In this document: one piece after another, positions 20,396 to 50,894 of the stretch
Numbering within the stretch: position 1 is the stretch's first letter
Layout of the letters: every line of letters starts with the position of its first letter
DNA from: Urechis unicinctus
Taxonomy: Eukaryota > Annelida > Polychaeta > Xenopneusta > Urechidae
Assembly: GCA_034190875.2 (NCBI GenBank)
Contig: CM067355.1
Coordinates: 30,434,958-30,498,957, forward strand
Direction: 5' to 3'
Length of the DNA: 64,000 nt
Notes under the pieces: generated by a model
Database searches by the model: none
Told to the model about the DNA's origin: nothing
The model's input: the letters and a program-made list of their open reading frames with translations, nothing else
Made by a program: the position numbers and the translations under genes

Positions 20396-20662
20396 GTGTT
20401 AACAAGTCTGAGCTTCTTTACAACCTTTTGTTCTATGCTAAAGTTATACCCTGTTATAATTTGGTCTGCTACATCGGCAATGAATGAAAGTAAATATTTA
20501 CCAACAAAATGCAACAAATTTGAGAGACCTTCGTTTGCATTAAATTTTGCACTTTTAACGTCGCAGGTTCCTTTTGTGGTAGAATGGTTAGTATACGGGG
20601 TTAATTGTTCGGCTTTTATTAAGGTCGTCTACAACTTTCGAGATTTGGTCATCAGTGCTTAA
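20396..20662 (+). other. 88-codon frame conserved in four copies, unknown
   Basis: A plus-strand frame of about 88 codons (with ESKYLPTKCNKFERPSF and FIKVVYNFRDLVIS) is open here and in the equivalents 37372-37638, 43099-43365 and 48823-49089. In each case its stop codon lies in the TTAA (CTAA in one) at the transposon's left edge. No ATG or family is evident. The opposite strand is also open here but has a stop in the tandem units. It may be the tail of another element or a chance frame preserved because the units are young. Confidence 0.25.
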
Positions 20663-20898
20663 AGTGCCTATCGCATGAAAAATCATATAATTAATTACGG
20701 AAATGTAACCAACAGGCACATATTCTGTCTATGTATCAGTCATCAAAGTGCGCACTTTCGGATCGAAATTCAACTTTAAAAAGGAGTCCGGTGTATCGAT
20801 ACGACGAGCTCATGAATAATTAATCGCCTCCGAGTAACGTCAGCTCCGGCGTTGTTTTTGTTGCGAGGCGCGATCTGTGCTACGATTAGCGCAAAAAA

Positions 20899-22196
20899 GT
20901 GGCTGGTTATTTCGCTATTTCATCACTTCAGGAGAGCAAAGAAGAGACAGGGGATGGCATAGATCATTTGAAGACCATCCTTGCATCGGCAGAGCAAATT
21001 TTTCCTTACAGATTCGAACCAGAAATGAGCGATTCAGACGTCTCCGATGAAGAGAAAAAAGATACTGGCGATGTCACTGCTGCGTCTCACGCGGGTCATC
21101 CTGCCCAGGACATAGGGCTGCTACAGAACAATGCTTGGTAAGCTATGTCTGATTGTACTTGTGCACCAGTTCATCGTTTATGTGTTGACATGTATCGAAG
21201 TTAATCCATAAATTTCACCAACAAAATATGTAAACTCTTTTCCTAACAGTATACAACAGAGCTTTGCAGCAAATAATTCTTCCATATCAGACAGCAGACA
21301 TGAGATATCACAAAGTTTTTGTCTTATCAAGTTGATGCAAGGGTTCATGTTTACAAAGTAGTACCATGTAAGTGGAAATGCTCCTACACACGAATTGTAA
21401 ACAAACTACAACTAATTTCGGACTAGCTGCTGTTAATAAATAGAGATGCACTTTTATATAAAGCTGGCCTAATAACAATGTTTTTAAAGTTGATGTACAT
21501 TGATTCTAAGTTAGAACATATATAGGAGAGAAAGTACAACAGCTGTTTTCTTATAGGATTTTCAGTTAGCCCATAAATGAATGTATAACTGGATTTAAGG
21601 AAGTGAAGATTATGGTATTATATTATCATTATGGTCAGTGTTACATCAGAGTTTCTATGAATGTCGAGGCTAACACAACCTGTGGCTACTGTCAACCAAT
21701 GGCAGAGGTGGAAGAATCAGTGTGCTGTGTGGAGATTACTCCAGTCATGACCTCCCCAAAAAACAACCCCATTCCAACTGGTTGTATAACCCCGCATCCT
21801 GGTTTCAGACCAATCTGTTTGAACCCTTGGGCCTTGCAAGTGGCATATTTCTCCTACAGACAACAACAGGGGCACATGTCAGATAATGATGTACAAAGGT
21901 GACGGTTTGTCATATTGTTTACACATAAATCTGTACGAAGTCTAGCAGTCATTATTTACAATTGCATTATACTTATTGGTATGAAAAAAATATTTGAACA
22001 GGGATAAATCAACAATGGCACATAGTTATTTTACAGGCGTTACTGGTATGCTACATACAGACAGTTTGTTCGCTGGTGCTGGGAGCATCTAGGACAACAG
22101 GTAAGAGTTCCTTTACTAGCCTGCGATGTTACAACTATATGAGAGAACTTCCCAGCACCAGACCACCAAGGATTCCTTTACCCTCCACTCACCTAG
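20899..22196 (+). pseudogene. P2X7 ballast-domain-like protein, broken
   Basis: Resembles the zinc-binding cytoplasmic ballast of vertebrate P2X7, which also occurs as stand-alone invertebrate proteins. Exon 1 (20899-21137) reads FPYRFEPEMSDSDVSDEE and ends with a GTAAGC donor splitting a Trp codon. Exon 2 (remaining part 21681-21898) has CGYCQPMAE, ESVCC, GCITPHPGFRPICLN and LQVAY. Exon 3 (22037-22196) has RYWYATYRQFVRW, LACDVTTI and ends QGFLYPPLT then TAG. The start codon is missing (GTG in an otherwise suitable place), the exon 2 acceptor and first codons are deleted, and exon 3 has TGA at 22140, where Arg (CGA) is expected before ENFP. It lies within the transposon, convergent with the transposase, so it is probably a transposon passenger or second gene. 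Its role there is unknown. Confidence 0.75.
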
Positions 22197-22451
22197 GACT
22201 TGTCTTGATACATGCGGAACCTACTCTGGCGTGCCTCAATGACTTGTCGTCGATCGAGCCTCACCCCATCTGCACACACTAGATGTGGTGCTTCTGTCTT
22301 AGGTAGGGTTGTCTCATAGCAAACCAGCAAGAACTCAGCCATCAGGCACTCGACATACTGAGTAATTAAGTCGCATCTTGCACACCAGACTTTCGTTTAT
22401 AACCTTATATCCCCATGGTAATTGAATTTGTTGTTGTTAACATTTTATATA

Positions 22452-23441
22452 TCAGTAAAAATATTCACCAAATGTTACCTTGGTTGCTACTTTAGTGGCA
22501 ACATGTCCCTGCTTAAATTTGGGGTATCTTAGCTTGAAGACTGAATCCCTAGCTTCTGTTGTCGCCTGTTCTTTTCCCCCATTTTCATTATAAATGGAGG
22601 GCAGCCAGTCTGAATCTGTGAAACAATGAATCAATTATACGTGACCTACATATATTTGGCATAACAGCACATGTAAACAAATTTAATGACTCACAAATTC
22701 TATACAGAATATACATACACCACCATGAATGAGCACTGTTAAAAGCAACAAATTATTATCATAAGAATGGTACTTGCGTTGGCAACGATACCCTCATAGA
22801 AGATGACCAGCATCTAGGGGCGAAGTGGTTGACCAAACTATGGAAGGCTTCAACTGATGATGTTTGCAACTCGCCTGACATTTTGCGAACATCCTGGCAG
22901 AGTAGATGGTTGTTGACCAACTTCTCTAGCTTAAAAGCTACATGACTGCCTGTTACTTTTAGAATCAAGTTATGTATGTAATTTTGTAGCTCTATCATTG
23001 CAGTATTTTGTAGAAAATTTGACATAAGCATCTCGTAAAATATGCAAGGGCATATAACTAGGCCATTTACTAAATAATGAATAAAATATGATGCCCAAAA
23101 ATGGGGTGGGAGGGGTCACTTGCCTCACCATCCTTTCTTGCTTGCTTGACAGCAGAGGCCTTGGCAAAAAGAGTAGGCACAGCATTTCGCCTCAAAACCC
23201 GCTTGCACCTGGTATCCAACCAAATCTCTTCTCAAAGTTTCGGTGCCTGCTTAAAACATTCCTCGGTGAAATGAACCGAGCACACTAATGATTACTTGCC
23301 GGGGCCCATCCATTTGTCTCGCGATCGCAGTACCTGGACAGGCCATTGTTTTTTCAAATCGTCCTTACCAGGAAACTTGAACAAGCGCACGCCGTCCACA
23401 CTGGTACGAGAGCAGCCCCAAACACAGCAATAATTAACCAT
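22452..23441 (-). pseudogene. THAP-domain transposase, N- and C-terminal pieces
   Basis: Minus strand. The start at 23441 gives MVNYCCVWGCSRTS, then FKFPGKDD, a Trp-containing segment, CSVHFTEECFK and RNAVPTLF: the C2CH zinc ligands, Trp and AVPT-F box of a THAP DNA-binding domain. Two stops interrupt it (TAA before CSVHF, TGA after KQAPKL). Further on, 22780-23000 reads ELQTSSVEAFHSLVNHFAP and, after frameshifts, 22452-22630 gives ATTEARDSVFKLRYPKFK, matching the C-terminal part of THAP/Kolobok-type transposases as I remember them (SS.E.FH...N.FAP, then LAA.HYNEN). The catalytic core between THAP and tail is missing. The family call rests on several motifs; the exact exon limits are uncertain. 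Confidence 0.7.
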
Positions 23442-23899
23442 CGTGTTCAATTAGTCACAAGATGGCTGAAAACGATCAAAAATCCCAAGAATATGGGAGA
23501 CCAATTCCGACAAATTACAATGTAAACAACGGGAAACTCCCTGCGTCTCTGAGAACGGGCTTGCTTCACTGATGTCACACACCTGGGTCTGACCTATATA
23601 ATGGCTGCCGCAGCGTTTTTTCGAGCGCGCTAATTAGAACTGACATTTGATCAAATATTGGCCTTAACTGATCAGATGCGACGTTATAGTTTAATGATCA
23701 CATTATGAATTGATTTCAGCGAAGTACCTATAACCTTGCGATAGGCACTTTAACGTACCCAACATAGCATCATGATTGACACTTACCACCATTGCCTCTT
23801 TCGTCCATCGTGAGCATAATTTGCTCCTGCATAATTGGACACACTATCTACGCTGATAGAATGTCAAAATTGACACTTACATGCAGCTGTATGACAATG

Positions 23900-30515: not shown

Positions 30516-33500
30516 TTACTGTGAATCTCGCCACAGGAATCTATCATCTCCTAATAATTTAGCTAGCTTTTGGTTCCACGGTTTGTAGTAATTGTCAATG
30601 AGGCTCTTTGTATCGTTCCAAAGATTACCAAAGACATTTTTCTTGGCCCTTCCGGAGTTTTCTACGCGCATTGCATTGAGACGTCTGGATTGAAAGGCGT
30701 CTAAAAACATAAAATCATGGCTAACTAAGTATTGTAATCTTAAATATAAATCAATATTGAAGATTTATAAACCAAAATATTTTATACCCATTCAGATTTT
30801 TGTAAACGCTAACACTTTTATTGCAAAAACGCATTGTATTTTTAGACTAAATAGCTGAATGACATCGATAGCATCATCCAAAGGAAGTGTAGTAGCAAAC
30901 TCGATCAACAAACCTATGCCGAGGAATTCAGCTATTTCGTTGCCAATACGCAATCTGTTCATGGAATAGTCCTCTAATCGAGTGATATATATCTGTTGTC
31001 TCGGAAACACTTGTAGCCAGTCCCGAATAAAGATATAATAAAGGCCCACCAAATTTGCAACTGCAAAATAAATGATCCACAAACAAGTCAGGTTCCATTG
31101 CTTTCTTATAAGACGACTTCGTAGCTTAATTATTGATTCATCTGTCCTTTAATGGTTTATGCGCGACAAGTTAAATCATGACAGCTTAGCAAGTAAATAG
31201 TATTTCCACACACAGGTATGGCTCGTTTGTCAGTTGCAGTGTCATATACACACGTGCGCTGGGAGGTGCTTTTAGCAAAGCACTCCTCTTGAATACTTAT
31301 CGCACGGGTCACAAGTTCCTTGAATTTCTCGTTACTTTTTTCCACATTAGGAAGGAGAAAAAGGTACTCAGACAATAATCTAGATACACACAAATACAGG
31401 TCATATCAATATAAATTGTAATTATGCATTCTGAATATCAGCAAGTTTCCACATGAAATGCAGGAACAAAGATTGTGACATGTTTTGAATCTGTTCATAA
31501 CCTTGTGGTGGGATAACGCAGAATAAGTACGATCTTAGCATTGGGTGTAAGTTGGTGAATTATGTCTGCTACTATTTTACTAGGAACAGCTTCATTCTGA
31601 TTGGCAGTCATGTTTCGCCATCCAATGAACTCATGCACATAGCTTGGTGTAAAATCTCCTGTCAACATGTATCAGATATATTTTTAGAACTAAAGAAAAA
31701 AGAGCTGTAGCATAATTGATTAAAGCAAAGATTTCGTGAAGCCAATAATTAATACTACAGACCAGTAATTTGGCGATGCTGTTTCGCTTTTGTGATGTTG
31801 TCATAGACATAATTAGAACGAATAATTTCAGAGATTGGGTCGTAGTAGTCGACATAATGACGAAATGGGCGAGGCACGGAAGCCGACACTTGATGATCAT
31901 ACTTCAGTATTGCGCTCGTCGGAGGTATGCCTGGATGACATTCAATTATTGTTTAAACCAGTTATGGGTAGGGAGTGGAGGTGGGGGTGGAGGGGGGGGG
32001 GGGGGGGGGGGGGTAGGCAGGAGGTGTATACGTCCAACACCCAAAGTGCTCATCGCCACGGCACAAAGTTGCTAGCTGTTGTATCTTGTGATGCCATTTG
32101 TAATAGTATTTTGAATGGTGCCAGACAATATTCGCTTGTTGTACCATTTCTGCTGATGCTGACAGTTGTGAAGCTTGGCTATATAGACATGTTGAGTAAT
32201 TGTCGTTTACACTAGGCATATCTAAGATCCAAAGATTATCCTATGGTATGGAAGTGATCTATGTATAATACAACCTGGAAAAATAATAGCTACAAATATG
32301 TGACACGAATAACTAAACAAAATGGGAAATTGTATCTTTTTACTTATTTGCACTCGTTACCATTATATATCATATGCAACTTTATATGTCGACGAACTGC
32401 TAAGAAAAAACGACAGTTATGCAATATGTATATATAGCCAAGCTACACAATATCAACAACTGCCGACATATCAAAAAAAAATATAGCAAGCGGATGTAAG
32501 CTACAATCTACAGTTTTCTGAAATCTACCTCTTCTTTCTCCTTGTTATAGATATTCTTGCTAGTTCACAGGGACATCATGTAAGATCATTTGTACATATA
32601 ACTATGAACTATTCTCGTTCAATGCGCCATAGAGTTCATTATCAACTAGTTGTATTGAATGTTAAAATTATCATTGATTCATATTCACCGTGATAACGAA
32701 TTCTGTTCCAGTAGGCAGATTCCTTCATTAGAGGAGGCACTATCTGGGGATTTCCCGAGAGCGTTTTTGCCAAATCAGTGGTGCCGCATTTAGTTACCCC
32801 AGCGATGTAGAAGTAGGGCAAGCATCGCAATCTCCACGAGACACCGCTGTTGCCTAAACCACGTGACAAAATGACGCGACTCATGTTGTAAAGCTCCTTT
32901 CCCGCTTTTCTACCTGTTGATATGAGGATCGTGCTGTTTGCGTAACTGTACGTAGCATTGACTCTCTCTAGCCAACAAGGGTTTTTGTAATTTTGGAGTA
33001 CAGGAATAGGTTCCTAAACCGAGTAACAAAAACAAACAAAGATATCATTTCCAACGGGCAGTTTGTGCAATCTGTTTACAGTAAATGCACATTGTGCATA
33101 TTAAAAAAATGAGATTATTTAAGACCTGCTTGAGAACTGATTCAATTGCTAACATATTTTTAACCAGACAGGTAAATTTAGCTCAGAGTTGAAAATATCA
33201 TTCATGATGTATCATTCCGATATTCCCGAACTGATAATAAGATTCGTAAGACAATTGTTATCAGTAACTTATAAACAAATTTGAATCATGACGAAATATC
33301 AATTTATTGGCCCTTTCAAACTGTTTACAACAATGAATAGATGCACAAATAGCAATTAACCTGTTGTAGATGTTGTAAATACCTACAACATCTTACGTAT
33401 ATGGCGCAGTAACAGAAATCATTATATCCCGGCGTCAGAGGAATATATCGATTAAAATCATGCATATGGTGTTCGAAACTGACACTCCTATATATTGACT

Positions 33501-34253
33501 CGAGATCTGCGATGGGGTAGGGTCCGAAACCTCGTATTATGGATAAGCCTTACATCTAGACGAGCATAATCGTGAGGTGTTAACCAGCCAATATACTCCC
33601 CATTCCATCTGACAACTATGATTGAAGGAATATGGCACACGACCATGGTGTAGTTCGCACTTTGCTAGATGTAAGGCTTTATCTTAGCAATGATCCAGAA
33701 CTCAATTTGCTATCTGGTAAGACACAGCTTAATAGTTCTAGTTACAGTGGTACTTTAACGGCTTTTGATTATATTGTGTTGCGTCTGTAAGCAGCTTCAA
33801 CAGAAGTGGAAAGTGGAAGTCACATGTCGAGCCTAGAATCTTTTGCTCGTCCCTGTAGCTAGGAACAGACAACACCTTCCTGGTAAATCAATAAATACTT
33901 ACCGCTGTGGCATTGTCTATTTGAGCATCAATATCTGGCTTCATTGTTACGTCCTGGTATCCATGTGATGAGTGGCTGGCTTTTGTAACGTCATTTTGAA
34001 ATCCACGAGGACTTGGGCCAGGCGAGGGATTTCTTTTTTTCTGACCTGACATAAATAATGTTTGCTTTGAAAAACCAGACCTATCCAACGATACCTGCCT
34101 GGTCGTGTTGTCAGCTGTAGTCAGCCTTTGAATGTCATTGTTCTCTATTCCCCATATAAAAACGGGTATGCATAGTACAATCGTTAGTGTGACTAGAGAA
34201 AATACAGTTTTAGCGTCCCACGACAACCGAGTTGAGCTACGTAGACTTGCCAT
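30516..34253 (-). CDS. CHST15-like carbohydrate sulfotransferase, best copy
   Basis: Predicted type II Golgi enzyme moving sulfate from PAPS to a glycan. Exons on the minus strand: E1 33903-34253, E2 32689-33013, E3 31763-31888, E4 31502-31658, E5 31214-31379, E6 30914-31060, E7 30516-30700. Phases join correctly throughout, giving about 485 residues. E1 has a short cytosolic end, a signal anchor ([18 protein letters not shown]) and a stem with NTT and NAT sites. E2 holds the 5'-phosphate loop FYIAGVTKCGTTDLA. E4-E5 hold the 3'-phosphate site LILRYP ... LLSEY. E6 has GLYYIFIRDWLQVF and RLEDY. E7 ends in NYYKPW and FLWRDSQ. Oddity: E6 is 147 bp against 148 in copy 2 (TTTGGTGGG for TTTGGGTGGG), a 1-nt deletion that would shift the frame. 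This could be real decay, an assembly error, or be rescued by a donor 4 bp further on. The substrate is unknown. Confidence 0.75.
31992..32013. repeat. Poly-G run (22)
   Basis: Twenty-two consecutive G in the intron between exons 2 and 3 of the sulfotransferase, preceded by GGAGGTGGGGGTGGA. Copy 2 has only GTGGGGGTGGGGGTAGG at the same place (about 14991). Its length is likely unreliable. Confidence 0.9.
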
Positions 34254-34499
34254 GTTGATAGGTGAGGGAATAGATGCGCCGATAACAACTTGAACCTGTT
34301 CGATCTAGCACAGCTGTTCCATTCCAGTATGAAACGCAAACACATTGTATGCGTTGGTAAATAATTAAAATGTCAATGAAGACACATCGGAGCAGAAAAC
34401 GTTTCTTTGCGCGTGTGTGAATCGATTAGCGATCGTCATCAGAATATATATGAATATATATGTGAAGTTTGCATGTAAATATATATATATGAAAACATA

Positions 34500-34500
<1 letters not shown>
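34254..34500 (-). promoter_or_regulatory. Candidate promoter/5' region of sulfotransferase exon 1
   Basis: The DNA just upstream of the exon 1 ATG (minus strand) is conserved in all three tandem units and at 17756-17990, including CGATCTAGCACAGCTGTTCC, ATTGTATGCGTTGGTAAATA and CGTTTCTTTGCG..TGTG. No clear TATA box can be placed with confidence, because TA microsatellite begins directly beyond. The promoter role is inferred from position only. Confidence 0.35.
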
Positions 34501-34672
<172 letters not shown>

Positions 34673-34679
34673 TATAGGG

Positions 34680-35050
34680 TGTAGTAGCTGGTGGAGTTGG
34701 TGGAAGTGTTGTGAATGATGTTGGTGGGGGTGTAGTGGGTGATGTTGGTGAGTGTGTTGTGGGTTTTTTTGGTGTGATGTAGTGGACGATGTTGCTCGGA
34801 GTTTAGTGGTAGGTGTTTGTGGAGGTGTAATGGGTGATGTTCGTGTGGATGTAGTGGGAGGGGTTATTGAGGTAGTAATGGTGTGGTGTAGCTGGTGAGT
34901 AATGGATGGTGAAGGTGGGGGACGAATGTGTGGTGTTGCTTGGGCAGTAGTGGGTGGTGTTGCTGGGGTAGTAATGGGTGGTGTAGTGGGTGGTATTGCT
35001 CGGATGTAGTGGGTGGTGTGGTGGGAGATGCAGTGGGTGATGTTTCTCAG
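34680..35050. repeat. G-rich minisatellite, unit 1
   Basis: Degenerate tandem GTAGTGGGTGATGTTGGTG-type motifs on plus, about 370 bp, with runs of three to five G. The complement reads as Pro/Thr-rich frames. Matching arrays are at 18080, 40395 and 46140. Followed by a conserved non-repetitive piece containing AATATGGCGGTTTCAAGAG (about 35140), whose function is unknown. Confidence 0.9.
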
Positions 35051-35844
35051 AGTTACGTTTCTCAAAAATTTTCTTCAAGCTTCAGGCTCTTTGGAGAAAC
35101 AACAGAGCAACGGGCAGCGATATTCTCAAGAAACGTCGTTACCGAATATGGCGGTTTCAAGAGAGGAAGTGCAAAGTGTGCATTTAAGAAGCTGAACTTG
35201 ATTTCTTTTGTCCATGAACGAATGTTTGCAGAACGATAGATGGAGATCCTTTCAAGAACACCTGACACCAATTAATCAGTACCGTGTTAAATGCGCAGGC
35301 CTTTTTGTGCAATGATCTTCTGCATTGTCATCAAAAAGTAGCAGCGTATTTGCAGCATCAACAGATGACATCACCATTAATACAAATTATACGATAGAAA
35401 TATATAAATAAACCGGAAACATAACAGTATTTGTGCCTTCAATCGTTCAATGATTCACTCAGTTAGACATTGAAGAAAGCGGAAGTCGATCTGGGTGTTA
35501 TAGTGTCTTACAAACAACACATTGTGACACGTACCTGTTTATCTAAGTTTCGCTAAATATCATGTCGCCATGTCTGAGGTTCACACACTTCCGGTACCCA
35601 TTCAGACTGATCCATAAATTATGCTTCTGTTGCATAAATATGAAAACGTAAATACACACTTTGCACACCAGAGTGTCAGACAACACATGGTAAGACGTTC
35701 TCGGGTGAAATAGCCGAATGATGCCGTATCGTTGTCGAATCCAACTTCCATGTAGCATCCATCCAAGTATGTCTAGTCTAATCTAGAAATACACCATCCT
35801 TGTGCCCTTGGTGATTTTCATACGCATGTGAACGATTCTGACAA

Positions 35845-36540
35845 AGCCACCCCACAACCCATTGAAGGGACTTCGACATGGAGGATTCTGACACAGTGAC
35901 GCACAGCCCATTATAGGAACTTATTCTTTACCCATAGCTTTAATGATGAAGGATGGAAAGATGTTAATGAAGCAGGGAATGATCGGAATTACGTTCACAG
36001 TCACAGGGAACACACGCGCGATGACTTGCTTCTATCTGATGTAAACGCCTCGGGAAAGAGAAGAGGTTGCTGTAGAGTTCTGCGTTTGTTGTCCAATGCG
36101 TTGTTTTAGGATATGGCACTTATTGACTTCATAGGCAGCGTATATGAGTGTTGGCCGATATCAATTTATATACGTGGGTATTGGGAGCAGCGCTTTGTCA
36201 CGGTAAAACGCTATGACCGCCAATAAATCCGGTCTCACAAATAGTCTTGACGAATGGGGCTTGATCTTCCTTGGCCGAACATCCTTCATTGAGCTTGGTA
36301 AGGCCTGAATATTATGTTATTTCCGTTAAAGATGTATGTAGTTTGAGGGATTTTTCTTTCAATCGATTTGGTATCCGCAATGAGGACTTTGCAGTTAGTA
36401 AGCTCGTTTTGGTCTCGCCTCACTTCTCCAGGTTTCAGCTCCTCGGTCATATTAAAGAGTTTATAGCTATGCTAAGTGGGCTCACTTCGAGTGGCTCGGC
36501 GGTGATCGCTTCCCTGATTATAATACATTTCAAACTTAAG
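35845..36540. other. Segment present in tandem units, absent at 19.29 kb
   Basis: Between GATTCTGACAAAGCCA and GATGGCGCTACCGTG the tandem units carry roughly 700 bp that the single copy at 19265-19295 lacks. No inverted ends or target duplication are evident, so it is not clear whether this is an insertion here or a deletion there. The first 60 bp contain a partial internal duplication (GATTCTGACA ... CAGCCCATTATAGGAAC). No protein is recognised. Confidence 0.5.
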
Positions 36541-36585
36541 ATGGCGCTACCGTGACTCAAACAAAAGCACATGGGAATACTTGGC

Positions 36586-36593
36586 TGACGTCA
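36586..36593. promoter_or_regulatory. CRE-type palindrome TGACGTCA
   Basis: A perfect 8-bp cAMP-response-element core in the unit spacer (GGCTGACGTCACTGCG). The single copy at 19.3 kb has a mutated form. Function is unproven; an 8-mer occurs by chance about once in 65 kb of random sequence. Confidence 0.25.
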
Positions 36594-37817
36594 CTGCGAT
36601 TGATCAGAGCGGGAAAAATGTGTCTTCATAGAGCATTGCCACGGCCAAAACACGTCGCATAATAGGCTTATGAATAGCAAAAATAGCAAGTACTCTACTA
36701 AATAAATGTCAACTTGATAAATTATGGGAAACAGTTCGCCTCACACAGCGTCCGCGCAGTTTACGATCCTGGTTCTTTCTTGTCCGCACTCTGTCCGCAC
36801 TGTGGATGGTAGTTTCAGATTGTCGATAAATGTCTGAATCTAGGGAACTGACCTGGGATCGACATAAACATTTTTGGCATGTCAGGGGGATGTGAAGGTT
36901 TTGAGCGAAGTTATAGCCACGCTGAGCTGCGTGACAATTATGAAACTTGAAAGACACCCCCGACATCAGGCGACGATACCATGAAATCAACAAAAGCACA
37001 TGGGACTGTTGATCCAACGTCTCGGGGCTCGGCGGCTGTTAAAGATATGAAGTCATCTGATTGGTCGAGTAAACAGAGCATTCCACGTGGTTTTAAGAGA
37101 CGCTATGACAAGACGCTATGACAATAACACTTCGGCTAACAGGTGGCGTCTTCACATATTTACTCGGGCGGAAGCTTCGAGTGAGCTCTTTTAAAGAAGC
37201 TATAAACTCTTTGTCATTTCGTCCATATCGTTCCCAGAATGTGTTTCCATCTTCATATCATTTGGAGCGTGTTCCTTTTTGAAATGTGCCCTAAGGGAAC
37301 AATCTGTGAATTAAAAGTTTATAATGCAAATCTAACACATATAGTCTGGCCCAGGCCAAAATATACAAGGTGTGTTAGCAAGTCTGAGCTACTTTACAAC
37401 CTTTTGTCTTTGGCCAAAGTTATACCCTGTTATAATTTGGTCTGCTACATCGGCAATGAATGAAAGTAAATATTTACCAACAAAATGCAACAAATTTGAG
37501 AGACCTTCGTTTACATTAAAGTTTGCGCTTTTTACGTCGCAGCGTCCTTTTGTGGTAGAATGGTTAGTATACGGGGTTATTTACTCGGCTTTTATTAAGG
37601 TCGTCTACAACTTTCGAGATCTGGTCATCAGTTCCTAAAGTGCCTATCGCATGAAAATTCATGTAATTTATTTCGCCAGATTACGGAAATGTAACCCACA
37701 GGTACCTATTCTGTCTATGTAACAGTCAAAGTGCGCGCTTTCTGATCGAAATTCGACTTTTAAAAGGAGTCCGGTGTATCGAGAAGACGAGCTCATGAAT
37801 AATTAATCGCCTCTGCG

Positions 37818-37825
37818 TGACGTCA
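37818..37825. promoter_or_regulatory. TGACGTCA (CRE) upstream of P2X7-like exon
   Basis: A perfect CRE palindrome about 70 bp upstream of the P2X7-like reading frame, followed by the GC-rich AGCTCCGGCG. It is also present at 43545-43552 and 49269-49276 and is mutated (TAACGTCA) in the 20.8 kb copy. A place in the element's own promoter is plausible but inferred. Confidence 0.35.
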
Positions 37826-37884
37826 GCTCCGGCGTTGTTTTTGTTGCGAGGCGCGATCTGTGCTACGATTAGCACAAAAGGGCT

Positions 37885-38640
37885 GCTGGTAATTTCGCTA
37901 TTTCATCACTTCAGGAGAGCAACAAAGAGACATGGGATGGCATAGATCACTTGCAGACCATCGTTGCTTCGGCAGAGCAAATATTTCCTTACAGATTCGA
38001 ACCAGAAATGAGCGATTCAGACGTCTCCGATGAAGAGAAAAAAGACACTGGTGATGTCACTGCTGCGCCTGGGTCTCATGCGGGTCATCCTGCCCAGGAC
38101 ATAGGGTTGCTACAGAACAATGCAAATTGCTACAGAACAATTCTAAATTTCACCAACAAAATATGTAAACTCTTTTCCTAACAGTATACAACAGAGCTTT
38201 GCAGCAAATAATTCTTCTATATCAGACAGCAGACATGAGATATCACAAAGTTTTTGTCTTATCAAGTGGATGCAAGGGTTCATGTTTACAAAGTTGTACC
38301 ATGTAAGTGTAAATGCTCCTACACAGGAATTGTAAACAAACTACAGCTAATTTCGCACTAGCTGCTGTTAATAAATAGAGATGCACTTTGATATATTATC
38401 ATTATGGTCAGTGTTACATCAGAGTTTCTATGAATGTCGAGGCTAAAACATATTTGCCATACAATATGTAATCCTTTATTACATACATTAATATTCCCAT
38501 CACTACATTATCTTACAGGTGTTTGTGTGGCTACTGTCAACCAATGGCAGAGGTGGAAGAATCAGTGTGCTGTGTGGAGATTCCTCCAGTCATGACCTCC
38601 CTAGAGAACAGCCCCATTCCAACTGGTTGCATAACCCAAC
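37885..38640 (+). pseudogene. P2X7 ballast-like exons, unit 1
   Basis: Exon 1 (about 37885-38124) reads ISSLQESNKETWDGIDHL, FPYRFEPEMSDSDVSDEE and HAGHPAQDIGLLQNNA, but the splice donor present at 21138 is deleted. Exon 2 keeps a perfect acceptor (TCTTACAG at 38511-38518) and starts CLCGYCQPMAEVEESVCC, then is cut after GCITQ by an internal deletion that joins it to the transposase tail. Exon 3 is missing. No ATG is visible at the start. Zinc-ligand cysteines are conserved up to the break. Confidence 0.7.
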
Positions 38641-39645
38641 TGGTTGACCAAACTAAGGAAGGCTTCAACCGATGATGTTTGCAAGTCGCCTGACATTTTG
38701 CAAAAAATTCCTAGCAGAGTAGATGGTTGTTGACCAACTTCTCTAGCTTAACAGCTACATTACTGCCTGTTACTTTTAGAACCAAGTTATGCAGTTTGTG
38801 CAATCTGTTTACAGTAAATGCACATTGTGCATATTTAAAAAATGAGATTATTTAAGACCTGCTTGAGAACTGATTCAATTGCTAACATATTTTTAACCAG
38901 ACAGGTAAATTTAGCTCAGAGTTGAAAATATCATTCATGATGTATCATGCCGATATTCCCGAACTGATAATAAGATTCGTAAGACAATTGTTACCAGTAA
39001 CTTATAAACAAATTTGAATCATGACGAAATATCAATTTATTGGCCCTTTCAAACGGTTTACAACAATGAATAGATGCACAAATAGCAATTAACCTGTTGT
39101 AGATGTTGTAAATACCTACAACATCTCATTAATAAATCTTAGGTATATGGCGCAGTAACAGAAGTCATTATATCCCGACGTCAGAGGAATATATCGATTA
39201 AAATCATGCATATGGTGTTCGAAGCTGGCACTCCTATATATTGACTCGAGATCTACGATGGGGTAGGGTCCGAAACCTCGTATTATGGATAAGCCTTACA
39301 TCTAGACGAGCATAATCGTGAGGTGTTAACCAGCCAATATACACCCCATTCCATCTGACAACTATGATTGAAGGAATATGGCACACGACCATGGTGTAGT
39401 TCGCACTTTGCTAGATGTAAGGTTTTATCTTAGCAATGATCCAGAACACAATTTGCTATCTGGTAAGACACAGCTTAATAGTTCTAGTTACAGTGGTACT
39501 TTAACGGCTTTTGTTTATATTGTGTTGCGTCTGTAAGCTTCAACAGAAGTGGAAAGTGGAAGTCACATGTCGAGCCTAGAATCTTTTGCTCGTCCCTGTA
39601 GCTAGGAACAGACAGCACCTTCCTGGTAAATCAATAAATACTTAC

Positions 39646-39996
39646 CGCTGTGGCATTGTCTATTTGAGCATCAATATCTGGCTTCATTGTTACGTCCTGG
39701 TATCCATGTGATGAGCGGCTGGCTTTTGTAACGTCATTTTGAAATCCACGAGGACTTGGGCCAGGCGAGGGATTTCCTTTTTTCTGACCTGACATAAATA
39801 ATGTTTGCTTTGAAGAACCAGACCTATCCAACGATACCTGCCTGGTCGTGTTGTCAGCTGTAGTCAGCCTTTGAATGTCATTGTTCTCTATTCCCCATAT
39901 AAAAACGGGTATGCATAGTACAATCGTTAGTGTGACTAGAGAAAATACAGTTTTAGCGTCCCACGACAACCGAGTTGAGCTACGTAGACTTGCCAT
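39646..39996 (-). CDS. Second copy of sulfotransferase exon 1
   Basis: Complete first exon: ATG at 39996, [13 protein letters not shown], signal anchor [18 protein letters not shown], luminal stem with NTT and NAT sequons, and a phase-0 end before a GTAAGT donor at 39645. It differs from the 33903-34253 copy by a few substitutions (for example Ser for Phe after the RSG motif). No exons 2-7 follow in the same unit, so it could work only as an alternative first exon spliced over about 6.6 kb to exon 2 at 33013. Expression is unknown. Confidence 0.7.
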
Positions 39997-40254
39997 GTTG
40001 ATAGGTGAGGGAATAGATGCGCCGATAACAACTTGAGCCGTTTCGATCTAGCACAGCTGTTCCATTCCAGTATGAAACGCAAACACATTGTATGCGTTGG
40101 TAAATAATTAAAATGTTCGATGAAGACACATCGGAGCAGAAAACGTTTCTTTGCGCGTGTGTGAATCGATTAGCGATCGTCATCAGAATATATATGAATA
40201 TATATGTGAAGTTTGCATGTAAATATATGTATATATATAAACATATGAAAACAT

Positions 40255-40270
40255 TTATATATATATACAT

Positions 40271-40365
<95 letters not shown>
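40255..40365. repeat. Compound microsatellite, unit 2
   Basis: (CATA)n-(CA)n-(TA)n tract upstream of the second exon 1 copy, shorter than the one in unit 1. Confidence 0.95.
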
Positions 40366-40367
<2 letters not shown>

Positions 40368-40394
40368 CATAAATATATATGTTAATATATATAG

Positions 40395-40775
40395 GGTGTA
40401 GCTGGTGGAGTTGGTGGAAGTGTTGTGAATGATGTTGTGGGGGTGTAGTGGGTGATGTTGGTGAGTGTGTTGTGGGTTTTTTTGGTGTGATGTAGTGGAC
40501 GATGTTGCTCGGAATTTAGTGGTAGGTGTTTGTGAAGGTGTAATGGGTGATGTTCGTGTGGATGTAGTGGGAGGGGTTATTGAGGTAGTAATGGTGTGGT
40601 GTAGCTGGTGAGTAATGGATGGTGAAGGTGGGGGACGAATGGGTGGTGTTGCTTGGGCAGTAGTGGGTGGTGTTGCTGGGGTAGTAATGGGTGGTGTTGC
40701 TGGTGGTATAGTGGGTGGTATTGCTCGGATGTAGTGGGTGGTGTGGTGGGAGATGCAGTGGGTGATGTTTCTCAG
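40395..40775. repeat. G-rich minisatellite, unit 2
   Basis: Degenerate GTAGTGGGTGGTGTTGCT-type repeats on plus, upstream of the second exon 1 copy. Internal repeat number differs slightly from unit 1. Confidence 0.9.
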
Positions 40776-43365
40776 AGTTACGTTTCTCAAGAATTTTCTT
40801 CAAGCTTCAGGCTCTGTGGAGAAACAACAGAGCAACGGGCAGCGATATTCTCAAGAAACGTTACCGAATATGGCGGTTTCAAGAGAGGAAGTGCAAAGTG
40901 TGCATTTAAGAAGCTGAACTTGATTTCTTTTGTCCATGAACGAATGTTTGCAGAACGATAGATGGAGATCCTTTCAAGAACACCTGACACCAATTAATCA
41001 GTACCGTGTTAAATGCGCAGGCCTTTTTGTGCAATGATCTTCTGCATTGTCATCAAAAAGTAGCAGCGTATTTGCAGCATCAACAGATGACATCACCATT
41101 AATACAAATTATACGATAGAAATATATAAATAAACCGGAAACATAACAGTATTTGTGCCTTCAATCGTTCAATGATTCATTCAGTTAGACATTGAATAAA
41201 GCGGAAGTCGATCTGGGTGTTATAGTGTCTTACAAACAACACATTGTGACACGTACCTGTTTATCTAAGTTTCGCTAAATATCATGTCGCCATGTCTGAG
41301 GTTCACACACTTCCGGTACCCATTCAGACTGATCCATAAATTATGCTTCTGTTGCATAAATATGAAAACGTAAATACACACTTTGCACACCAGAGTGTCA
41401 GACAACACATGGTAAGACGTTCTCGGATGAAATAGCCGAATGATGCCGTATCGTTGTCGAATCCAACTTCCATGTAGCATCCATCCAAGTATGTCTAGTC
41501 TAATCTAGAAATACACCATCCTTGTGTCCTTGGTGATTTTCATACGCATGTGAACGATTCTGACAAAGCCACCCCACAACCCATTGAAGGGACTTCGACA
41601 TGGAGGATTCTGACACAGTGACGCACAGCCCATTATAGGAACTTATTCTTTACCCATAGCTTTAATGATGAAGGATGGAAAGATGTTAATGAAGCAGGGA
41701 ATGATCGGAATTACGTTGACAGTCACAGGGAACACACGCGCGATGACTTGCTTCTAGCTGATGTAAACGCCTCGGGAAAGAGAAGAGGTTGCTGTAGAGT
41801 TCTGCGTTTGTTGTCCAATGCGTTGTTTTAGGATATGGCACTTATTGACTTCATAGGCAGCGTATATGAGTGTTGGCCGATATCAATTTATATACGTGGG
41901 TATTGGGAGCAGCGCTTTGTCACGGTAAAACGCTATGACCGCCAATAAATCCGGTCTCACAAATAGTCTTGACGAATGGGGCTTGATCTTCCTTGGCCGA
42001 ACATCCTTCATTGAGCTTGGTAAGGCCTGAATATTATGTTATTTCCGTTAAAGATGTATGTAGTTTGAGGGATTTTTCTTTCAATCGATTTGGTATCCGC
42101 AATGAGGACTTTGCAGTTAGTAAGCTCGTTTTTGGTCTCGCCTCACTTCTCCAGGTTTCAGCTCCTCGGTCATATTAAAGAGTTTATAGCTACGCTAAGT
42201 GGGCTCACTTCGAGTGGCTCGGCGGTGATCGCTTCCCTGATTATAATACATTTCAAACTTAAGATGGCGCTACCGTGACTCAAACAAAAGCACATGGGAA
42301 TACTTGGCTGACGTCACTGCGATTGATCAGAGCGGGAAAAATGTGTCTTCATAGAGCATTGCCACGGCCAAAAAACACGTCGCATAATAGGCTTATGAAT
42401 AGCAAAAATAGCAAGTACTCTACTAAATAAATGTTAACTTGATAAATTATGGGAAACCGTTCGCCTCACACAGCGTCCGCGCAGTTTACGATCCTGGATC
42501 TTTCTTGTCCGCACTCTGTCCGCACTGTGGATGGTAGTTTCAGATTGTCGATAAATGTCTGAATCTAGGGAACTGACCTGGGATCGACATAAACATTTTT
42601 GGCATGTCAGGGGGATGTGAAGGTTTTGAGCGAAGTTATAGCCTACGCTGAGCTGCGTGACAATTATGAAACTTGAAAGACACCCCCGACATCAGGCGAC
42701 GATACCATGAAATCAACAAAAGCACATGGGACTGTTGATCCAACGTCTCGGGGCTCGGCGGCTGTTTAAGATATGAAGTCATCTGATTGGTCGAGTAAAC
42801 AGAGCATTCCACGTGGTTTTAAGAGACGCTATGACAAGACGCTATGACAATAACACTTCGGCTAACAGATGGCGTCTTCACATGTTTACTCGAGCGGAAG
42901 CTTCGAGTGAGCTCTCTTTAAGAAGCTATCAACTCTTTGGTCATTTCGTCCATATCGTTCCCAGAATGTGTTACCATCTTCATATCATTTGGAGCGTGTT
43001 CCTTTTTTAAATGTGCCCTAAGGGAACAATCTGTTAATTAAAAGTTTATAATGCAAATCTAACACATATAGTCTGGCCCAGGCCAAAATATACAAGGTGT
43101 GTTAGCAAGTCTGAGCTACTTTACAACCTTTTGTCCTAGGCCAAAGTTATACCATGTTATAATTTGGTCTGCTACATCGGCAATGAATGAAAGTAAATAT
43201 TTACCAACAAAATGCAACAAATTTGAGAGACCTTCTTTTACATTAAAGTTTGCGCTTTTTACGTCGCAGCGTCCTTTTGTGGTAGAATGGTTAGTATACG
43301 GGGTTATTTACTCGGCTTTTATTAAGGTCGTCTACAACTTTCGAGATCTGGTCATCAGTTCTTAA

Positions 43366-44518
43366 AGTGCCTATCGCATGAAAATTCATGTAATTTATTA
43401 CGACAGATTACGGAAATGTAACCCACAGGTACCTATTCTGTCTTTGTATCAGTCAAAGTGCGCGCTTTCTGATAGAAATTCGACTTTTAAAAGGAGTCCG
43501 GTGTATCGAGACGACGAGCTCATGAATAATTAATCGCCTCCGCGTGACGTCAGCTCCGGCGTTGTTTTTGTTGCGAGGCGCGATCTGTGCTACGATTAGC
43601 ACAAAAGGGCTGCTGGTAATTTCGCTATTTCATCACTTCAGGAGAGCAACAAAGAGACATGGGATGGCATAGATCACTTGCAGACCATCGTTGCTTTGGC
43701 AGAGCAAATATTTCCTTACAGATTCGAACCAGAAATGAGCGATTCAGACGTCTTCGATGAAGAGAAAAAAGACACTGGTGATGTCGCTGCTGTGCCTGGG
43801 ACTCATGCAGGTCATCCTGCCCAGGACATAGGGTTGCTACAGAACAATGCAAATTGCTACAGAACAATTCTAAATTTCACCAACAAAATATGTAAACTCT
43901 TTTCCTAACAGTATACAACAGAGCTTTGCAGCAAATAATTCTTCTATATCAGACAGCAGACATGAGATATCACAAAGTTTTTGTCTTATCAAGTGGATGC
44001 AAGGGTTCATGTTTACAAAGTTGTACCATGTAAGTGTAAATGCTCCTACACAGGAATTGTAAACAAACTACAGCTAATTTCGCACTAGCTGCTGTTAATA
44101 AATAGAGATGCACTTTGATATATTATCATTATGGTCAGTGTTACATCAGAGTTTCTATGAATGTCGAGGCTAAAACATATTTGCCATACAATATGTAATC
44201 CTTTATTACATACATTAATATTCCCATCACTACATTATCTTACAGGTGTTTGTGTGGCTACTGTCAACCAATGGCAGAGGTGGAAGAATCAGTGTGCTGT
44301 GTGGAGATTCCTCCAGTCATGACCTCCCTAGAGAACAGCCCCATTCCAACTGGTTGCATAACCCAACTGGTTGACCAAACTAAGGAAGGCTTCAACCGAT
44401 GATGTTTGCAAGTCGCCTGACATTTTGCAAAAAAATTCCTAGCAGAGTAGATGGTTGTTGACCAACTTCTCTAGCTTAACAGCTACATTACTGCCTGTTA
44501 CTTTTAGAACCAAGTTAT
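43366..44518. mobile_element. Truncated TTAA transposon, unit 2
   Basis: Left end AGTGCCTATCGCATG preceded by an intact TTAA (43362-43365). Contains the P2X7-like pseudogene at 43612-44365 and the same internal deletion as unit 1, and ends at the unit junction. Confidence 0.75.
43612..44365 (+). pseudogene. P2X7 ballast-like exons, unit 2
   Basis: Exon 1 is nearly the same as in unit 1, with substitutions (SDSDVFDEE; AAVPGTHAGH). Exon 2 (acceptor TCTTACAG, exon from 44246) reads CLCGYCQPMAEVEESVCC and is truncated after GCITQ. The donor of exon 1 and all of exon 3 are missing, as in unit 1, so both descend from one damaged ancestor. Confidence 0.7.
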
Positions 44519-45377
44519 GCAGTTTGTGCAATCTGTTTACAGTAAATGCACATTGTGCATATTTAAAAAAATGAGATTATTTAAGACCTGCTTGAGAACT
44601 GATTCAATTGCTAACATATTTTTAACCAGACAGGTAAATTTAGCTCAGAGTTGAAAATATCATTCATGATGTATCATTCCGATATTCCCGAACTGATAAT
44701 AAGATTCGTAAGACAATTGTTACCAGTAACTTGTAAACAAATTTGAATCATGACGAAATATCAATTTATTGGCCCTTTCAAACTGTTTACAACAATGAAT
44801 AGATGCACAAATAGCAATTAACCTGTTGTAGATGTTGTAAATACCTACAACATCTCATTAATAAATCTTACGTATATGGCGCAGTAACAGAAGTCATTAT
44901 ATCCCGACGTCAGAGGAATATATCGATTAAAATCATGCATATGGTGTTCGAAGCTGGCACTCCTATATATTGACTCGAGATCTACGATGGGGTAGGGTCC
45001 GAAACCTCGTATTATGGATAAGCCTTACATCTAGACGAGCATAATCGTGAGGTGTTAACCCGCCAATATACTCCCCATTCCACCTGACAACTATGATTGA
45101 AGGAATATGGCACACGACCATGGTGTAGTTCGCACTTTGCTAGATGTAAGGTTTTATCTTAGCAATGATCCAGAACTCAATTAGCTATCTGGTAAGACAC
45201 AGCTTAATTGTTCTAGTTACAGTGGTACTTTAACGGCTTTTGATTATATTGTGTTGCGTCTGTAAGCAGCTTCAACAGAAGTGGAAAGTGGAAGTCACAT
45301 GTCGAGCCTAGAATCTTTTGCTCGTCCCTATAGCTAGGAACAGACAACACCTTCCTGGTAAATCAATAAATACTTAC

Positions 45378-45984: not shown

Positions 45985-46000
45985 TTATATATATATACAT

Positions 46001-46037
<37 letters not shown>

Positions 46038-46042
46038 TACAT

Positions 46043-46110
<68 letters not shown>
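45985..46110. repeat. Compound microsatellite, unit 3
   Basis: (CATA)n-(CA)n-(TA)n tract upstream of the third exon 1 copy. Confidence 0.95.
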
Positions 46111-46545: not shown

Positions 46546-49317
46546 TCTCAAGAATTTTCTTCAAGCTTCAGGCTCTTTGGAGAAACAACAGAGCAACGGG
46601 CAGCGATATTCTAAAGAAACGTTGTAACCGAATACGGCGGTTTCAAGAGAGGAAGTGCAAAGTGTGTATTTAAGAAGCTGAACTTGATTTCTTTTGTCCA
46701 TGAACGAATGTTTGCAGAACGATAGATGGAGATCCTTTCAAGAACACCTGACACCAATTAATCAGTACCGTGTTAAATGCGCAGGCCTTTTTGTGCAATG
46801 ATCTTCTGCATTGTCATCAAAAAGTAGCAGCGTATTTGCAGCATCAACAGATGACATCACCATTAATACAAATTATACGATAGAAATATATAAATAAACC
46901 GGAAACATAACAGTATTTGTGCGTTCAATCGTTCAATGATTCATTCAGTTAGACATTGAAGAAAGCGGAAGTCGATCTGGGTGTTATAGTGTCTTACAAA
47001 CAACACATTGTGACACGTACCTGTTTATCTAAGTTTCGCTAAATATAATGTTGTAGATTCGCCATATCTGAGGTTTACATATTTCCGGTACCCATTCAGA
47101 CTGATCCATAAATTATGCTTCTGTTGCATGAATATGAAAACGTAAATACACACTTTGCACACCAGAGTGTCAGACAACACATGGTAAGACGTTCTCGGAT
47201 GAAATAGCCGAATGATGCCGTATCGTTGTCGAATCCAACTTCCATGTAGCATCCATCCAAGTATGTCTAGTATGCATGTGAACGATTCTGACAAAGCCAC
47301 CCCACAACCCATTGAAGGGACTTGGACATGGAGGATTCTGACACAGTGACGCACAGCTCATTATAGGAACTTATTCTTTACCCATAGCTTTAATGATGAA
47401 GGATGGAAAGATGTTAATGAAGCAGGGAATGATCGGAATTACGTTCACAGTCACAGGGAACACACGCGCGATGACTTGCTTCTAGCTGATGTAAACGCCT
47501 CGGGAAAGAGAAGAGGTTGCTGTAGAGTTCTGAGTTTGTTGTCCAATGCGTTGTTTTAGGATATGGCAGTTATTGACTTCATAGGCAGCGTATATGAGTG
47601 TTGGCCGATATCAATTTATATACGTGGGTATTGGGAGCAGCGCTTTGTCACGGTAAAACGCTATGACCGCCAATAAATCCGGTCTCACAAATAGTCTTGG
47701 CGAATGGGGCTTGAGCTTCCTTGGCCGAACATCCTTCATTGAGCTTGGTAAGGCCTGAATATTATGTTATTTCCGTTAAAGATGTATGTAGTTTGCGGGA
47801 TTTTTCTTTCAATCGATTTGGTATCCGCAATGAGGACTTTGCAGTTAGTAAGCTCGTTTTGGTCTCGCCTCACTTCTCCAGGTTTCAGCTCCCCGGTCAT
47901 ATTAAAGAGTTTATAGCTACGCTAAGTGGGCTCACTTCGAGTGGCTCGGCGGTGATCGCTTCCCTGATTATAATACATTTCAAACTTAAGATGGCGCTAC
48001 CGTGACTCAAACAAAAGCACATGGGAATACTTGGCTGACGTCACTGCGATTGATCAGAGCGGGAAAAATGTGTCTTCATAGAGCATTGCCACGGCCAAAA
48101 CACGTCGCATAATAAGCTTATGAATAGCAAAAATAGCAAGTACTCTACTAAATAAATGTCAACTTGATAAATTATGGGAAACAGTTCGCCTCACACAGCG
48201 TCCGCGCAGTTTACGATCCTGGATCTTTCTTGTCCGCACTCTGTCCGCACTGTGGATGGTAGTTTCAGATTGTCGATAAATGTCTGAATCTAGGGAACTG
48301 ACCTGGGATCGACATAAACATTTTTGGCATGTCAGGGGGATGTGAAGGTTTTGAGCGAAGTTATAGCTACGCTGAGCTGCGTGACAATTATGAAACTTGA
48401 AAGACACCCCCGACATCAGGCGACGATACCATGAAATCAACAAAAGCACATGGGACTGTTGATTCAACGTCTCGGGGCTCGGCGGCTGTTTAAGATATGA
48501 AGTCATCTGATTGGTCGAGTAAACAGAGCATTCCACGTGGTTTTAAGAGACGCTATGACAAGACGCTATGACAATAACACTTCGGCTAACAGGTGGCGTC
48601 TTCACATATTTACTCGGGCGGAAGCTTCGAGTGAGCTCTCTTTAAGAAGCTATAAACTCTTTGGTCATTTCGTCCATATCGTTCCCAGAATGTGTTTCCA
48701 TCTTCATATCATTTGGAGCGTGTTCCTTTTTGAAATGTGCCCTAAGGGAACAATCTGTGAATTAAAAGTTTATAATGCAAATCTAACACATATAGTCTGG
48801 TCCAGGCCAAAATATACAAGGTGTGTTAGCAAGTCTGAGCTACCTTACAACATTTTGTCCTAGGCCAAAGTTATACCCTGTTATAATTTGGTCTGCTACA
48901 TCGGCAATGAATGAAAGTAAATATTTACCAACAAAATGCAACAAATTTGAGATACCTTCGTTTGCATTAAAGTTTGCGCTTTTTACGTCGCAGCGTCCTT
49001 TTGTGGTAGAATGGTTAGTATACGGGGTTATTTATTCGGCTTTTATTAAGGTCGTCTACAACTTTCGAGATCTGGTCATCAGTTCTTAAAGTGCCTATCG
49101 CATGAAAATTCATGTAATTTATTTCGACAGATTACGGAAATGTAACCCACAGGTACCTATTCTGTCTATGTATCAGTCAAAGTGCGCGCTTTCTGATCGA
49201 AATTCGACTTTTAAAAAGAGTCCGGTGTATCGAGACGACGAGCTCATGAATAATTAATCGCCTCTGCGTGACGTCAGCTCCGGCGTTGTTTTTGTTGCGA
49301 GGCGCGATCTGTGCTAC

Positions 49318-49975
49318 AATATTTCCTTACAGATTCGAACCAGAAATGAGCGATTCAGATGTCTCCGATGAAGAGAAAAAAGACTGGTGATGTCACTGCT
49401 GCGCCTGGGTCTCATGCGGGTCATCCTGCCCAGGACATAGGGTTGCTACAGAACAATGCAAATTGCTACAGAACAATTCTAAATTTCACCAACAAAATAT
49501 GTAAACTCTTTTCCTAACAGTATACAACAGAGCTTTGCAGCAAATAATTCTTCTATATCAGACAGCAGACATGAGATATCACAAAGTTTTTGCCTGATCA
49601 AGTGGATGCAAGGGTTCATGTTTACAAAGTTGTACCATGTAAGTGTAAATGCTCCTACACAGGAATTGTAAACAAACTACAGCTAATTTCGCACTAGCTG
49701 CTGTTAATAAATAGAGATGCACTTTGATATATTATCATTATGGTCAGTGTTACATCAGAGTTTCTATGAATGTCGAGGCTAAAACATATTTGCCATACAA
49801 TATGTAATCCTTTATTACATACATTAATATTCCCATCACTACATTATGTTACAGGTGTTTGTGTGGCTACTGTCAACCAATGGCAGAGGTGGAAGAATCA
49901 GTGTGCTGTGTGGAGATTCCTCCAGTCATGACCTCCCTAGAGAACAGCCCCATTCCAACTGGTTGCATAACACAA
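49318..49975 (+). pseudogene. P2X7 ballast-like exons, unit 3
   Basis: The start of exon 1 is deleted (CTGTGCTAC joined to AATATTTCCTTAC). FPYRFEPEMSDSDVSDEE is kept, but two bases are lost in the AAAAAAGACACTGG stretch, shifting the frame. Exon 2 (from 49855) still begins CLCGYCQPMAEVEESVCC and is truncated like the others. Confidence 0.7.
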
Positions 49976-50187
49976 CTGGTTGACCAAACTATGGAAGGCT
50001 TCAACCGATGATGTTTGCAACTCGCCTGACATTTTGCAAAAAAAAAATTCCTAGCAGAGTAGATGGTTGTTGACCAACTTCTCTAGCTTAACAGCTACAT
50101 GACTGCCTGTTACTTTTAGAACCAAGTTATGCATGTAATTTTGAAGCATCTCGTAAAACATGTAAAGGCATATAACTAGGCCATTTA

Positions 50188-50463
50188 CTAAATAATGAAT
50201 AAAATATGATGCCAAAAATGGGGTGGGAGGTGTTCACTTGCCTCACCATCCTTTCTTGCTTGCTTGACAGCAGAGGCCTTGGCAAAAAGAGTAGACACAG
50301 CATTTTGCTTCAAAACCCGCTTACACCGTGGTATCCAACCAAATCTCTTCTCAAAGTTTCGGTGCCTGCCCAAAACATTCCTCGGTGAAATGAACCGAGC
50401 ACACAAATGATTACTTGCTGGGGAACAGCCCCAAACACAACAATAATTAACCATCGTGTTCAA
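50188..50463 (-). pseudogene. THAP domain remnant, unit 3 transposon
   Basis: Starts MVNYCCVWGCS as at 23441, then an internal deletion joins it to the second half of the domain out of frame. The CSVHFTEE, RNAV-TLF and KQARKDGEAS motifs can still be followed by switching frame. DNA-binding function is lost. Confidence 0.65.
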
Positions 50464-50894
50464 TCAGTCACAAGATGGCTGAAAACGATCAAAAATCCCA
50501 AAAAACGAGAGACGAATTCCGACAAATTACGAGAACAGGCTTACTTCACTGATGTCACACACCTGGGTCTGACCTAGATAATGGCTGCCGCAGCGTTTTG
50601 TTGAGCGCGCTAATTAGAACTGACATTTTATCAAATTTTGGCCTTAACTGATCAGATGCGACGGTTATTGGACCGGTATGTGTTTATTGATCACACTATG
50701 AATTGATTTCAGCGAAGTACCTATAACCTTGCGATAGGCACTTAAACGTACCCAACGTAGCATTATGATTGACACCATTGCCTCTTTCGTCCATCGTGAG
50801 CATCCTTTGCTCCTGCATAATTGCACACTCCATCCACGCTGATAGAATGTTAAAATCGACACTTACAAGCAGCTTTATGACAATGATAATTTCC

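Follow-up and report, generated by a model that had tools for sequence, protein, structure and literature searches.

Kolobok transposons of the Kol0 group (the Kolobok-1_XT type) carry a second gene, KolX, in addition to the gene for their DDE transposase, and the receptor P2X7 is described as having arisen by fusion with KolX (Kojima and Bao 2022, PMC9587614). The same work names nanor as another likely domesticated KolX and mentions piggyBac elements encoding a protein that resembles the KolX C-terminus (PMC9587614). An earlier proposal derived P2X7 from a P2X4-like gene fused with an exon for the ballast, the tail of the receptor (Rump et al. 2020, PMC7016195). Among the papers listed in our literature searches, none but that of Kojima and Bao joined Kolobok and P2X7. 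For Kolobok elements of Xenopus, THAP and DDE transposases, non-autonomous relatives and TTAA targets are described in a paper whose main text contains the word KolX 0 times (PMC6004289). Here we analyze a TTAA-bounded element in a stretch of 64,000 nucleotides of the annelid Urechis unicinctus (contig CM067355.1, positions 30,434,958 to 30,498,957, forward strand; hereafter the window). With a probability of about 0.93 we read this element as a decayed, non-autonomous member of a high-copy Kol0-type Kolobok family, the longer relatives of which encode a transposase and, convergent with it, KolX. It resembles Kol0 elements in its TTAA target, its 5'-RR/YY-3' ends, the DDE transposase of the family and a KolX with the ballast signature; it appears to differ from those of PMC9587614 by the many internally deleted copies and by a KolX of three exons with two phase-2 introns, and is probably a new family of this known kind.

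Structure of the window element

The TTAA-flanked inverted ends of the original prediction were found at 20659-20675 and, as the exact inverse, at 23737-23753 (Table 1). The inverted repeats match perfectly over 13 bp and their termini inside the TTAA read AG...CT, in line with the 5'-RR/YY-3' ends of Kolobok elements. TTAA is present at both ends, as a 4-bp target-site duplication of this kind would predict. In the window, six matches to the end repeat with up to 3 mismatches compare with 0.13 expected from shuffles. Throughout the genome (1.19 Gb, 926 contigs), exact AGTGCCTATCGCA occurred 1,362 times and a reversed control pattern 11 times; 1,126 of these matches, and 0 of those to the control, had an adjacent TTAA.

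The transposase gene lies on the minus strand and reads, in order, a THAP domain with AVPTLF box and, beyond a deletion, a piece containing ELQTSSVEAFHSLVNHFAP; its last exon contains NENGGKEQATTEA and YPKFKQG. The THAP gene claimed for this strand is borne out by a match to PF05485 (E=3e-10) of a read-through translation in which X was typed for a stop, and a THAP domain is expected of Kolobok. The longest open THAP piece alone gave 1.4e-4 and 23.0 bits, slightly below the cut-off of 23.9. The transposase relative that we used, P0010 from Fundulus (676 aa), has THAP and the Mutator-like domain PF20700; at E up to 0.1 it matched PF05485 and PF20700 in Pfam and nothing else. Since the window pieces align to P0010 at residues about 8-102, 522-567 and 587-621 alone, the D,D core is missing. 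The transposase tail that had been claimed is thus real, with the core ahead of it lost from this copy; searched alone against the protein database, the tail gave no match among 21 candidates. The glutamate of TSSVEAFH is presumably the catalytic one.

The plus-strand gene converges with the transposase, the two stops lying at 22196 and 22452. Its exon pieces, joined and with X in place of the stop, matched the ballast family P2RX7_C (PF20478) with E=7.8e-7 and 29.6 bits (cut-off 23.5); exons tested separately gave no match or scores under the cut-off. The ballast gene was thus correctly recognized, and the description of it as intact-looking is wrong here: the window copy is decayed and both of its genes are broken. 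Alignment of the window KolX with 13 further copies, of which two lie in the window, shows AAA at the start site at 20896 where most other copies have ATG. The splice acceptor is lost, an internal stop is present, and exon 2 lacks its first codons, so that the motif given as CLCGYC is absent and reads TTCGYC (21675-21692). CLCGYC is present in the sister copies of the window near 38.5, 44.2 and 49.9 kb. We also weighed whether the frame IQQSFAANN... between exons 1 and 2 is a further exon and decided against it, because exon 1 continues in frame into exon 2 as NNAW-CLCGYC.

Relatives of the element in the genome

Long relatives of the window element measure about 5.5 kb, and in them KolX is a protein of 210 residues encoded by three exons. 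Five such copies were examined, four selected from KolX hits (L054-L057) and one by the spacing of its ends (L053). DDE-core matches with KolX convergent on the opposite strand were present in all five. L057 shows, in the order of P0010, THAP, GGDGRADSPGHSAKFGSY, ITDRHVYVQ, YDMWHVAKG and TSSVEAFHSLVNHFAPK. Its core motifs align to P0010 as GGDGRADSPGHS, ITDRH, YDMWH and SSVEAFH, and GGDGRAD can also be read. The DDD/E and C/DxxH motifs of Kolobok transposases are therefore present in L057 and, with the core deleted, absent from the window copy; judging by their order, these motifs presumably hold the catalytic residues. In L054, the KolX frame runs uninterrupted from ATG to TAG, both introns have GT-AG borders, and the protein matches P2RX7_C with E=7e-17. 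Another pair of ends 5.6 kb apart (L052, contig C2), full-length by size, was set aside; it gave no P0010 match and appears to be a nested arrangement.

Copy sizes were counted on contig 1, where 58 listed ends could be joined into 11 facing pairs: in five the spacing was 2.8-2.9 kb, in the other six 0.37-0.67 kb. From contigs 1 and 2 we fetched seven copies of the larger class, 2.8-2.9 kb (L009-L015), by their ends alone. KolX and THAP matches were found in 7/7, a match to the DDE core of P0010 in 0/7. All seven KolX genes stop at the same codon, before VMTS or VMIS; exon 1 is frameshifted in six, all but L013, and in six, all but L010, a glycine replaces the cysteine of the CIT motif. These copies are 91-99% identical among themselves and 84-87% identical to the window copy. 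They form an abundant 2.9-kb subfamily in which neither gene is intact and which presumably moves in trans. L055 keeps the DDE core yet has the same KolX stop, which suggests that, in the line leading to it and to the 2.9-kb copies, damage to KolX preceded the deletion of the core. At most exon-1 scraps of KolX, and no DDE-core match, were found in five short copies (L016-L019 and one in L020). Intact members lacking the ballast gene would have spoken against KolX as a family gene; none was found among the fetched copies, a subset of the family, and the KolX-poor short ones also lack the DDE core. When 150 of the 5,187 candidates from a KolX search of the genome were scored, 236 exon-level matches were obtained.

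The same gene pair was found in other Kolobok families of the genome. A transposase search, in which 66 of 3,330 candidates were scored, returned 135 matches. Families 2 (L071, L078) and 4 (L081) were chosen by their transposase regardless of KolX, family 3 (L070/L080, C3) by its vicinity to a KolX hit. KolX was convergent with the transposase at 3/3 loci of families 2 and 4, and with the DDE gene of family 3, so that it is present in 4/4 families examined, the window family being family 1. In family 2, L071 and L078 (contigs C2 and C15) carry THAP and DDE matches on the strand opposite to KolX. The TTAA-flanked ends AGTGCAAGTAA of L071 enclose 6.2 kb and show 2 mismatches over 14 positions; for L078 no end pair was found in a stretch that stops too early. 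The KolX of family 2 matches P2RX7_C with E=1.3e-15. Twelve further fetched loci of this family (L058-L069) are mostly 97-99.6% identical, L063 and L067 being lower; no KolX was found there at E<=1 within 1.5-kb flanks, which end short of its position in L071 and L078. In family 4, L081 (C14) holds THAP, DDE and convergent KolX inside TTAA-AGGTCAACT ends 4.86 kb apart. The ends of families 2 and 4 also begin with AG. Transposase cores are 34-46% identical between families (family 1 vs 2 41%, vs 3 46%, vs 4 36%). The idea that the ballast is the second gene of a Kolobok-like family is thus upheld by long copies with both genes and by three other divergent families.

Several observations weigh against this reading. 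No fetched family 1 copy among L053-L057 was shown to combine both exact terminal inverted repeats with two unbroken genes. L057 has its right repeat, no left one within 3 mismatches, and a 7-nt deletion in KolX exon 1. L056 is similar in having the right repeat and no left one within 3 mismatches; its matches run from THAP to the tail, and most of its KolX exon 1 is gone. In L054 the core is duplicated, and neither a THAP match nor a right end was found in the stretch. THAP is likewise unmatched in L055, where two stops interrupt KolX, and L053 is devoid of KolX exon 1. KolX is therefore broken in some long copies as well (L055, L057), which weakens the notion that KolX and transposase were lost jointly. 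In family 3 no pair of terminal inverted repeats was found, nor any THAP match in the stretches L070/L080. Finally, the placement in Kol0, which is probable, is based on KolX and motifs.

Introns of KolX and the P2X7 ballast

In families 1, 2 and 3, where intron positions were read by eye, intron 1 interrupts the Trp codon (TG|G) of W-C-x-C-G-x-C and intron 2 lies just ahead of the RYTAYRQF block, both in phase 2. Sections 12 and 16 of Kojima and Bao (2022, PMC9587614) do not give KolX intron positions. As a separate observation, exon 2 of the family 3 KolX lacks the ballast middle with the CC and CIT part (L080 1412-2292, together with L070), the two intron positions being unchanged.

The ballast of P2X7 is encoded by a single long exon, exon 13, which comprises 170 aa (Rump et al. 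2020, PMC7016195). KolX being intron-split and the receptor tail encoded by a single exon, direct exon capture from such an element would need the loss of two introns or an intron-less donor. We tentatively propose, as a possibility we regard as less than even, that KolX has been a standing partner of the Kol0 transposase through deep divergence with its introns unchanged, and that the P2X7 ballast came from an intron-less or reverse-transcribed KolX or lost its introns after the fusion.

At the protein level, the window KolX had 9 relatives at E<=1e-3 among 27 candidates, with Crassostrea, Branchiostoma, Ylistrum, Engraulis, Ptychodera and Actinostola among those named. When the window pieces and these nine relatives were combined into a profile, P2X7 was found in the PDB with 3.9e-8 over chain residues 474-593. 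The family 2 KolX achieved this by itself at 2e-7, whereas a phmmer search of the PDB with only the damaged window KolX gave no match. Compared with the P2X7 ballast, a zinc-binding cytoplasmic tail (PDB 9e3m, 6u9v, 8tr5; P2RX7_C), the W-C-x-C-G-x-C, CIT, LPSC and IR..FP columns of KolX align to 9e3m_A 474-593, whereas one Cys alone of the ESVCC pair falls on a Cys in the hidden Markov model alignment. KolX moreover is a free protein of three exons, and the ballast a receptor tail in one exon. An AlphaFold model of the KolX homologue P0001, made from 9 sequences, had a mean predicted local distance difference test score (pLDDT) of 41.1 and was unusable for fold comparison. Viral contigs searched with the KolX alignment gave 14 pattern matches and no relative. 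Exons of host P2X receptors (PF00864, 15 matches) were all on contig C15, near 15.86, 48.03 and 66.67 Mb, and in one 3.35-kb stretch downstream of one P2X exon no ballast was found at E<=1.

The origin of the P2X7 ballast in such an element, which the original prediction had put forward, would fit the homology seen here and, as a statement in print since 2022 (PMC9587614), appears sound but is not new. The additions made here are the gene content in four families, a KolX with two phase-2 introns and the abundant 2.9-kb subfamily with both genes broken.

Setting of the insertion and competing explanations

Table 1. Features of the window element and its local duplicates.
Feature	Positions	Strand	Remarks
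Whole Kolobok element including both TTAA	20659..23753		3095 bp, internally deleted; ends identical and inverted
Left TTAA	20659..20662		
Left terminal inverted repeat AGTGCCTATCGCA	20663..20675	+	1,362 copies genome-wide
KolX exon 1	20896..21137	+	AAA where ATG expected, donor GT kept; aligned with 13 other copies
KolX exon 2 remnant (CGYC...ESVCC...CITPHPGF...ICLN)	21681..21898	+	5' end and splice acceptor deleted
KolX exon 3 (RYWYATYRQFVRWCWEHLGQQ...PPLT stop)	22037..22196	+	in-frame TGA at 22140-22142
Transposase last exon (IYNENGGKEQATTEA...YPKFKQG...TFGEYFY stop)	22452..22619	-	
Transposase piece with TSSVEAFH	22786..22998	-	upstream D,D core deleted
Transposase THAP region with AVPTLF box	23166..23441	-	two in-frame stops
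Right terminal inverted repeat, exact inverse of AGTGCCTATCGCA	23737..23749	-	
Right TTAA	23750..23753		
Duplicated left part of insertion	37635..38791	+	cut by tandem-array junction
Duplicated left part of insertion	43362..44519	+	cut by tandem-array junction
Duplicated copy with both ends	49086..50746	+	more deleted

Four stretches of the window bear element ends. The 290 bases before the left ends at 37635, 43362 and 49086 align to those before 20659 in 270-272 of 291-292 columns, and 33058-50133 is a tandem array with units of about 5.73 kb that are about 96-98% identical, a less similar unit extending from 16.4 kb onward. The array junctions near 38791 and 44519 fall inside the Kolobok element and cut it. 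Because the flanks are common to all four and the junctions cut the element, the four stretches are read as one insertion that would have been multiplied by local duplication, not by transposition. Each array unit has a conserved minus-strand frame. Exons beside the array may resemble a carbohydrate sulfotransferase (KCGTTDLA), for which Pfam gave no match. Elsewhere in the window, a 39-nt tandem repeat with seven in-register copies lies at 1457-1807, and at 56392-57042 many short units, mostly 8 nt apart, form a long array whose frames read YIHT and MYVC repeats. The frames at 61805-62484 may resemble a fragment of a transposase of the Mutator-like element (MULE) type, 61805-62203 being without a Pfam match. 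In all, Pfam gave no match for five window frames beside those of the element, so that the names proposed for them here are tentative.

Seen from the window alone, where all copies stem from local duplication, the data would be compatible with a ballast gene that landed by chance in a single THAP transposon. This explanation is in effect refuted by KolX in 7/7 end-fetched 2.9-kb copies, in long copies and in three other families, always convergent, and by the publication of KolX for Kol0 in general (PMC9587614); we give it almost no weight. A domesticated host ballast gene that sits in transposon debris by chance has a precedent in the domesticated KolX proposed for nanor and P2X7 (PMC9587614). 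However, the window copy lacks the start and the acceptor and has a stop, and the genome gives the 236 exon-level matches reported above; this explanation is highly improbable. The TTAA target is also that of piggyBac elements, of which some are described as encoding a protein like the KolX C-terminus. Within the TTAA ends, however, a THAP/DxxH transposase of Kolobok type was found instead of a piggyBac transposase; THAP, DxxH and 5'-AG...CT-3' ends are Kolobok features, and P0010 has no Pfam match beyond the two named above. An assignment to piggyBac is thereby in effect refuted and hardly credible.

The remaining question within the Kolobok assignment concerns what KolX does. Kolobok elements move by a DDE transposase that acts at TTAA. 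The THAP/DDE transposase of the longer copies would bind the ends and insert the element at TTAA, and it may mobilise the shortened copies in trans. KolX is predicted, as a guess for which we would give even odds, to be a small accessory protein, folded around zinc, that works together with the transposase or with the complex at the ends; countering of host silencing or nuclear localisation would be alternative roles. KolX might also be a passenger gene without any role in transposition. The 2.9-kb and shorter copies have spread despite a broken or nearly absent KolX, so KolX is dispensable in cis, and the stop that L055 has in common with the 2.9-kb copies would place the breakage of KolX before the loss of the core. 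On the other side stand its presence in 4/4 families and the same two intron positions in the three that were read. The ratio of nonsynonymous to synonymous substitution rates (dN/dS) of KolX is 0.45-0.52 for the window copy vs L054, L055, L057 and L012, values that include neutral decay and may fit past constraint; among pairs without the window copy it ranges from 0.48 to 1.7, the L056 values being distorted by an unrelated stretch in exon 1. We consider a mere passenger unlikely, though less so than if KolX were unbroken in all long copies; for the same reason the standing partnership proposed above is held with more reserve.

In summary, one genome and four Kolobok families confirm what has been published, namely that the ballast of P2X7 is a transposon protein. 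They sharpen two questions, namely the role of KolX in transposition and the way by which a transposon gene of three exons was turned into one exon of a receptor. With one long copy in which KolX is open and another family with many copies that are 97-99.6% identical, the genome of Urechis unicinctus is suited to these questions.

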